64,000 nucleotides of DNA from the NCBI RefSeq assembly GCF_009690625.1, contig NZ_CP033878.1, forward strand, positions 2,294,001 through 2,358,000, in the 5' to 3' direction. The notes below the pieces were generated by a model. That model was given only the letters and a program-made list of their open reading frames with translations, made no database searches and was not told the DNA's origin. The DNA is from Halorhabdus sp. CBA1104. GTDB taxonomy: Archaea > Halobacteriota > Halobacteria > Halobacteriales > Haloarculaceae. A program made the translations under genes and the position numbers. Of the stretch, positions 14,979 through 16,798 are shown piece after piece; position 1 is the stretch's first letter, and each line of letters opens with the position of its first letter.

Positions 14979-16415
14979 ATGCCAACCGGTGGTGCGTGGA
15001 CCGTTTTCTCGGGCGACACTGACGAGTCTGCCTCTCGCGACGACAGTCCTCCCTCGCGACGGCCAGACGAGGCTGGGAGCGATCGGGGCATGACGCCCGT
15101 CGTGGCCAACGTCCTGTTGGTCGCGATTGCCATCGTCCTCGGGGTCACGGTCACTATTTTTGCCCTCGGTCTCGCCGAGCCGTTCGAAGCCGAGCCACCG
15201 ACAGCGTCCTTCGAGACGGACTATACTGCCGCTAATGGACTCTTCGTCCGCCACCAGCACGGCGATGGTATCGACGCCGATCGACTGTCCGTCCGACTCG
15301 ACGGCCGGTCGTACCCGGTCTCGGCGTTCGTCGACGACCAGCGCCTCACTGCCGGGACCCAGATCGGTCCGCTGTATCCGGCCGCGTCCCGGGAGGCCCA
15401 CCTCGTCTGGGAGCAGGGTGATACGTCTTCGATCGTGTACACAGCCACGCCGCCCCGAGAGGGGACCGTCCCCGCCTATCTTCGATTCGACGAGCGGTCC
15501 CTCAGATCGTACGGCGGCGGGCAGGACGCCGATGCCGAGTTCACGTCCACGACGGGGGCCAGAGCGGTGACCCTCGAGAACAACACCTGGAAGCTGCTCG
15601 ATTTCGAGTACAACGTCACTGCCCAAACGGTCCTGGAATTTGACTTTCGCGCGACGAACGCCGGGGAAATCCACGGGATCGGCTTCGAGACCGACGACAG
15701 CATCTCCAGTGACCGGATTTTCAAGCTGCTTGGCTCACAGCCTTGGGGCATCGAGTACGGCGAGTACGAGACCGGTGATGGCTGGGTCCACTACGAGATC
15801 CCTGTCGGGGAACTCTACGGGTCATCACTGCACGGCCAGACCTCCTCTCTCGCCCTCGTCAACGACGTCGACAACGACACCAAGCGGCCGAGTGACTCTC
15901 AGTTCCGGAACATCCGCGCGTATGAATCACCACCGGAGGATTCGTCGATACAGTTCGAATTCAGCGCCGACGGGGCCACTGTCACCGAACCCGTTCAAAG
16001 CTACGGCAGCCAGGACAAGGACTTTGGCGTGGCGGTCAGCGACGACAACGCGATGCTGACTCTCTCGGAGAACACCTGGGCGTACGTGCCGATCGACGAA
16101 TCTGTCACCGACGACACCGTGCTTGTGGTCGAATTCAACGCATCGAGCCAGGGTGAGATCCACGGTGTCGGCCTGGAAACCGACAACTCGGAGACAGAAT
16201 CACGGTTCGTCCGTTTTAACGGCACTCAGTCCTGGGCCACGAAAGTCACCCCCGTCTCTTCGGGCGACGACGGCTGGGAGCGCTACGAGATCGACGTCAC
16301 CTCACTGCTTGCGTCCAGTGGTGAAACTGTCTCCCGTCTCGTGTTCGTCAACGACGACGACACCGGTGGAAACGGTGTCTCACAGTTCCGGAACGTGACG
16401 ATATACGACGAATAG
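14979..16415 (+). CDS. Type IV pilin-like surface protein with two repeated beta domains
   Basis: A 478-residue protein. A polar leader of 37 residues ends SDRG, followed by MTPVVANVLLVAIAIVLGV: the class III signal cleaved by the prepilin peptidase PibD between G37 and M38, with the hydrophobic assembly helix at about 41-66. Residues 73-165 match the small domain usual in archaeal pilins (DUF1628 type). Then come two homologous units, about 178-315 and 342-477, sharing TLxxNTW, VLxFxxxAxxxGEIHGxGxETD and FRNxxxYE, which look like carbohydrate-binding jelly rolls. Most haloarchaeal pilins stop near 150-200 residues. An adhesive pilin that binds polysaccharide is my inference. Promoter region near 14946-14955. 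Confidence 0.78.
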   Translation: MPTGGAWTVFSGDTDESASRDDSPPSRRPDEAGSDRGMTPVVANVLLVAIAIVLGVTVTIFALGLAEPFEAEPPTASFETDYTAANGLFVRHQHGDGIDADRLSVRLDGRSYPVSAFVDDQRLTAGTQIGPLYPAASREAHLVWEQGDTSSIVYTATPPREGTVPAYLRFDERSLRSYGGGQDADAEFTSTTGARAVTLENNTWKLLDFEYNVTAQTVLEFDFRATNAGEIHGIGFETDDSISSDRIFKLLGSQPWGIEYGEYETGDGWVHYEIPVGELYGSSLHGQTSSLALVNDVDNDTKRPSDSQFRNIRAYESPPEDSSIQFEFSADGATVTEPVQSYGSQDKDFGVAVSDDNAMLTLSENTWAYVPIDESVTDDTVLVVEFNASSQGEIHGVGLETDNSETESRFVRFNGTQSWATKVTPVSSGDDGWERYEIDVTSLLASSGETVSRLVFVNDDDTGGNGVSQFRNVTIYDE

Positions 16416-16451
16416 ATAGCCTCGGGCTTCCCGACACAGTGGACGGCTATT

Positions 16452-16798
16452 AGACTTTCTTGACCGCGATCTCGGCCTCGATACCCTCGATCCCGCCACC
16501 ACCTTTTTGTTCGTCGGGTGTGCTCGCGACGCTCACGGCTACACCGCTCGCGTTCGAGGTTCGTCACTGCGTTCGAACCTCGCGACGCTCGCACACCGCT
16601 CTCACGGCGTCGCCGTTCGAGCGCTCGGCGGCCTCGTCCCACTCGGCCGCCCACTCCTCGAAAAAGCTGGACCAAAAAGGCGGAGTCTCGCGTCTTCGCT
16701 GCTCGACTCCGTTGAAACGCGGCCGCCGGCCGCGTATGCTCTTCAGCCGTCGGAATCAGACTTCTTCGACCGCGATCTCGGCCTCGATACCCTCGATC
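16452..16798 (-). repeat. Direct duplication of the ileS 3' end around a hairpin-rich block
   Basis: The last codons of ileS occur twice in the same orientation: 16758-16798 (true end, reading IEGIEAEIAVEEV then stop) and 16452-16492 (IEGIEAEIAVKKV then stop). The 31 bases at 16462-16492 and 16768-16798 are identical. The 265 bases between them are not coding, contain inverted repeats (CGAGGTTCG at 16555-16563 with CGAACCTCG at 16574-16582, and a GGCCGCCGGCCG cluster), and include a run resembling TGGACCAAAAAGG. It looks like an inserted or expanded repetitive element that copied the gene end, or an ileS tail displaced by an insertion. Confidence 0.7.

Follow-up and report, generated by a model that had tools for sequence, protein, structure and literature searches.

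The gene at positions 14979-16415 of the window (the whole 64,000-nucleotide stretch of Halorhabdus sp. CBA1104 DNA that we analyzed) raises the question of whether its product is a type IV pilus subunit and, if so, what the two repeated units in its C-terminal part are for. The original prediction was of a PibD-type pilin whose class III signal and assembly helix are joined to two tandem carbohydrate-binding-like units. On balance we lean toward reading the protein as a modular minor type IV pilin that is cut by PibD, incorporated into the pilus, and carries jelly-roll modules at or near the tip; their ligand there is most likely a glycan.

Anatomy of the gene and its surroundings

The pilin part of the original prediction holds up well. 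The class III signal, ...SDRG/MTPVVANVLLVAIAIVLG, conforms to the archaeal motif and should be cleaved after G37; the sequence after the SDRG of the leader, MTPVVANVLLVAIAIVLGVTV, agrees with the archaeal class III cleavage pattern, and the corresponding motifs across Halorhabdus orthologs are DRG/MTPVV, DRA/MTPVV, and DRA/VTPVV. Pfam assigns residues 37-110 to Pilin_N (PF07790; E 5.9e-10, 40.3 bits for a cut-off of 25.2), NCBIfam recognizes the archaellin/pilin N-terminal domain TIGR02537 (29.3 bits, cut-off 20), and among PDB sequences the top match is 8fj5, a solved 145-residue Pilin_N pilin aligned over residues 34-132 (E 2.5e-11). Because both the Pilin_N and the 8fj5 matches run well past the hydrophobic helix, we take the pilin part to be helix plus beta-module; the latter (residues ~66-160, between helix and repeats) was absent from the original prediction, and contains an HxxGD motif common to other carriers of the gene.

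Table 1. Features of the modular pilin gene, in window coordinates
Feature	Coordinates	Strand	Basis or detail
Whole gene, modular type IV pilin	14979..16415	+	ORF, 478 aa; stop TAG at 16413-16415
Leader, residues 1-37, long and hydrophilic	14979..15089	+	Class III signal ending DRG; sequence
Pilin assembly helix, hydrophobic, residues 38-65, MTPVVANVLLVAIAIVLG...	15090..15173	+	Pilin_N and TIGR02537 matches
Pilin beta-module, residues 66-160	15174..15458	+	Pilin_N match 37-110; 8fj5 alignment; strands in low-confidence model
Predicted jelly-roll module 1, residues 168-316	15480..15926	+	Core GEIHGIGFETDD at 15663-15698
Predicted jelly-roll module 2, residues 324-477	15948..16409	+	Core GEIHGVGLETDN at 16152-16187

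The two tandem units are indeed homologous (40% identity over 144 columns, E 1e-27) and each contains the predicted GEIHG-type core, although they are about 150 rather than about 135 residues long. A full-length model is of low confidence (pLDDT 62.8), too poor for domain packing or a fold search. Haloarchaeal pilins are, as had been supposed, usually short: other Pilin_N frames in the genome are 153-190 residues long with one exception of 546, and among the matches listed the best-scoring Pilin_N frames in 57 genomes of the family are nearly all ~130-300 residues. The same genome also encodes a second modular pilin (L024, G000:C1:1162377; open frame of 546 residues) with Pilin_N (E 7.4e-11) and Laminin_G_3 (E 2.4e-16) matches; like the pilin studied here it bears a C-terminal lectin-class beta-sandwich on an archaeal pilin, but the grafted domain is a different, ConA-like one and the GEIHG motif is absent. 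A second such protein in the same genome makes the modular-pilin reading of 14979-16415 more natural.

The pilin gene stands alone in the window, with an MFS transporter gene diverging from it on one side and ileS converging on it from the other. The ileS neighborhood is kept in the other three module-carrying Halorhabdus genomes; in several other genera a single-module gene lies near adenosylhomocysteinase-like or amidohydrolase-like genes (named by eye). No pilus assembly genes (PilB/PilC) adjoin the module-pilin gene in the loci viewed; elsewhere the Halorhabdus genome encodes a single prepilin peptidase, and PilB-type ATPases are represented by four matches above the family cut-off.

Other features of these neighborhoods may be recorded here. 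A 44-nucleotide direct repeat (91%; window 16449-16492 and 16755-16798, the second copy at the 3′ end of ileS) flanks ~260 bp downstream of the pilin gene, in the gap before ileS, which looks like the trace of a partial duplication or insertion; between the corresponding two genes in another Halorhabdus (G005; L110 6458-7208) lies a VapB/VapC-like toxin-antitoxin pair, recognized by eye. A secreted low-complexity protein often adjoins the single-module gene, as in three genera where it is secreted-looking and acidic (L112 3021-3923, L113 5332-6156, L116 4521-5342); these proteins share no Pfam family, nor does any of the three have a convincing one, and they are possibly partner proteins of the single-module pilins.

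Distribution, selection, and the case for a pilus subunit

In surveys of 195 relatives and of 391 genomes of the class, the module turned up in 23 proteins from as many distinct haloarchaeal genomes, which belong to four families; the copies total 28. Every one of the 23 proteins also carries Pilin_N (E up to 0.01), the G415 match falling slightly below the curated cut-off (24.4 bits, cut-off 25.2), and at least two have PKD domains. Two modules are present in five genomes (four Halorhabdus and G151) and a single module in the rest. A contig scan with one relative as query returned a sole match, in Halorhabdus salina, with 90% identity in module 1. Since the haloarchaeal module is found only on Pilin_N pilins, it probably forms a sticky tip borne on the pilus.

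Bacterial copies occur in other kinds of protein. A thin survey of plasmid and viral-contig collections yielded eight distinct, profile-confirmed copies: i) in the cyanobacterium Gloeothece, a protein that combines a cadherin-like domain with a putative TIM barrel; ii) in Glaciecola, a YD-repeat protein; iii) in Rhizobium, giant proteins, one with CBM35 and CBM6 domains; iv) in Salipiger, a giant protein near a type I secretion system; and v) on contigs classed as viral, three metalloproteases. No pilin module was found in the five of the eight that were scanned, and the grafted module thus also occurs outside pilins, as is characteristic of modular pilins. A single copy adjoins what may be a TIM-barrel enzyme (L029; recognized by eye from its motifs, with no PDB or Pfam match); the bacterial copies reside mostly in large secreted proteins or metalloproteases. 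Module-bearing metalloproteases on IMG/VR contigs (L039, L062, L063, L088) are mostly M12B-type (two by Pfam) with Bacteroidota-type C-termini, and one of the module-bearing IMG/VR contigs is 132 kb long. A phage origin of the module was also considered, and tblastn against phage records gave no match.

In a tree of the modules, each of the two Halorhabdus modules forms a well-supported group of its own, placing the duplication before the split of the four Halorhabdus species; the bacterial sequences sit on long branches and inner nodes are poorly supported, so that the tree neither roots nor dates a transfer. Nei-Gojobori comparisons between Halorhabdus orthologs give dN/dS of 0.15-0.21 for the pilin module, 0.13-0.22 for module 1, and 0.14-0.43 for module 2 (0.13-0.27 for the folded modules against H. 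salina), whereas the leader is weakly constrained (mostly 0.5-0.9); every folded module is under purifying selection. W204, G252, Q254, D296, and D298 are invariant in all 36 copies, archaeal and bacterial, and N202, N311, T217, and I231 are nearly so. As a kind of archaeal modular pilin, the protein is real and conserved.

Must such a protein enter a pilus at all? The pilin-like N-terminus might instead be a PibD-processed anchor for an unpolymerized surface receptor, as in the Sulfolobus "bindosome". Class III signals do occur on sugar-binding proteins in Sulfolobus, which sets a precedent, and the separation of our gene from pilus assembly genes would suit a receptor. Bindosome proteins are, however, ABC-transporter receptors, and no such receptor domain is seen in the 14979-16415 protein; moreover, an anchor alone would not need the beta part of Pilin_N, yet the full domain is retained in 23/23 carriers and is constrained in Halorhabdus (dN/dS 0.15-0.21). 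We therefore consider an anchored receptor unlikely; the product is very probably a pilus subunit. Stand-alone pilin genes are common in archaea, and the bindosome has itself been named as a type IV pilus system (PMC4858521).

As a modular pilin, the precursor would be translocated by Sec and then cleaved after G37 by PibD, the prepilin peptidase; helix and beta-module together would allow entry into a type IV pilus; the grafted pair of C-terminal modules, too bulky for the shaft, would be displayed at or near the tip, a position that the protein probably does occupy; and the modules would bind a ligand there, most likely a glycan of neighboring cells, of the biofilm matrix, or of a particle, with two modules raising avidity.

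Predicted fold of the modules and probable nature of the ligand

Searches of Pfam, NCBIfam, and PDB sequences gave no match to the modules (Pfam was searched with 14 domain sequences, PDB with a profile of the 14), and no Pfam CBM match emerged for the 14 domains up to E 5. A partial, out-of-register match to CBM_4_9 in the relative G415 (E 0.0064) was set aside because it falls below threshold and pairs the profile's C-terminal part with the start of the module. An AlphaFold2 model of module 1 built with six relatives (pLDDT 83.6, pTM 0.83) is nearly all beta and predicts a jelly-roll beta-sandwich as in CBM4, 11, 29, and 30. A Foldseek search of the PDB with this model ranks CBM30 first (E 2.6e-5, TM 0.45-0.5), followed by CBM4-2, endo-beta-N-acetylglucosaminidase (endoglycosidase beta-domains), CBM11, CBM29, CBM16, and CBM61, with TM-scores of about 0.4-0.55 overall; VIA-align gives Z 9.7-10.6 for a putative glycosyl hydrolase, CBM30, a porphyran CBM, a family 8 CBM, CBM29, and CBM86. 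Thus CBM30, CBM29, CBM4, CBM11, and the porphyran CBM 8xmz resemble the modules in predicted fold (CBM4 and CBM11 through the Foldseek list; Z ~10 for CBM30, CBM29, and 8xmz) but not in sequence, where identity is ~8-20%.

The original prediction of a carbohydrate-binding-like rather than an immunoglobulin fold is therefore favored by the model, the closest structures being mainly CBMs; the immunoglobulin fold is absent from the top structural matches of Foldseek and VIA-align. Nor, for the most part, is the repeat confined to unrelated adhesins, the other outcome named as refuting the prediction: bacterial copies also lie beside CBM35 and CBM6 domains or a putative TIM barrel. The predicted fold is compatible with sugar binding and is no proof of that function; VIA-align gives meprin, MAM, and ephrin-receptor domains similar Z, not all of them sugar binders, and among BFVD matches of the module are many tail and fiber proteins of the same fold class, likewise not all sugar-binding. 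It is reasonable to suppose that the modules bind a partner of some kind.

Could that partner be a protein? The modules might mediate adhesion to the S-layer, another pilin, or another cell, or might cap or stabilize the pilus with no sugar involved, as the MAM and ephrin-receptor domains of the same fold class would allow, and as might be thought from the bacterial copies, whose host proteins are for the most part metalloproteases or giant secreted proteins and not glycoside hydrolases. The top Foldseek ranks, however, are CBMs and endoglycosidase accessory domains, and the W, Q, and paired D that never vary among archaeal and bacterial copies point to a specific site for a small ligand or a metal; we accordingly give little credence to a role in protein-protein contacts. 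If the protein is a pilus subunit, the ligand of its modules is probably a glycan.

Which glycan is another matter. The original prediction had cells anchored to polysaccharide, with cellulose, chitin, xylan, and alginate named as test substrates. Read as attachment to a food source, this would fit the CBM-like predicted fold; H. utahensis and H. tiamatea, of the same genus, are predicted to be cellulotrophs (PMC10267330), and in each of two Halorhabdus carriers there are 8 GH5 matches. This part of the prediction found no support, for the Halorhabdus genome studied here contains no match to GH5, GH10, or GH18, and carriers of the module are not enriched in GH5 or GH18 (GH5 in 4 of 23 carriers vs 13 of 35 non-carriers, GH18 in 4 of 23 vs 6 of 35; 58 genomes, kinship ignored). 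A link of the module with polysaccharide degradation, sought through these three families, was thus not found, and attachment to a food polysaccharide seems an improbable account of the protein. Glycans of cells or of the biofilm matrix are equally likely as ligands, and for Sulfolobales a link between pilus recognition and S-layer glycosylation has been described (PMC7064770). One might even speculate, with much reserve, that the modules represent a new CBM family on haloarchaeal modular pilins, through which pili mediate glycan-specific recognition of haloarchaeal or nanohaloarchaeal cells.

Comparison with known pilins and adhesins

We wish to stress what a modular minor pilin of this kind would mean: the modular-pilin principle, worked out in Streptococcus, is extended to archaea; a binding-type domain absent from public family libraries is common to archaeal pilins and bacterial secreted proteins; and the protein, whose module is a small soluble domain, becomes a concrete candidate for how haloarchaeal pili select what they adhere to. 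Our literature search turned up no description of haloarchaeal type IV pilins with carbohydrate-binding modules.

Among known pilins, 8fj5 is similar in sequence over residues 34-132 but is only 145 residues long and lacks grafted modules. Tapirins, bacterial pilus-linked cellulose adhesins, likewise tie adhesive proteins to pili and polysaccharide binding, but are separate proteins and not pilins; PMC10267330 mentions them. Raynaud et al. (2021) catalogued >1,200 modular pilins of bacteria, in 264 architectures, and argued a tip location on steric grounds (PMC8179133); they searched with IPR012902, a bacterial signature, and "archaea" as a word is absent from the main text (PMC8179133). The closest parallels are Streptococcus sanguinis PilC (Ig-like plus ConA-like lectin) and PilB (vWA), which share with our protein a small N-terminal pilin module, a short linker, and bulky C-terminal binding modules (PMC9934059, PMC8179133). 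They differ in that the S. sanguinis pilin modules are IPR012902-type rather than archaeal Pilin_N, and in that the graft is ConA-like or vWA, not of our jelly-roll family. PilC, for which Shahin et al. (2023) showed glycan binding (PMC9934059), has a proven glycan-binding module and is modeled at the pilus tip (PMC9934059, PMC8179133).
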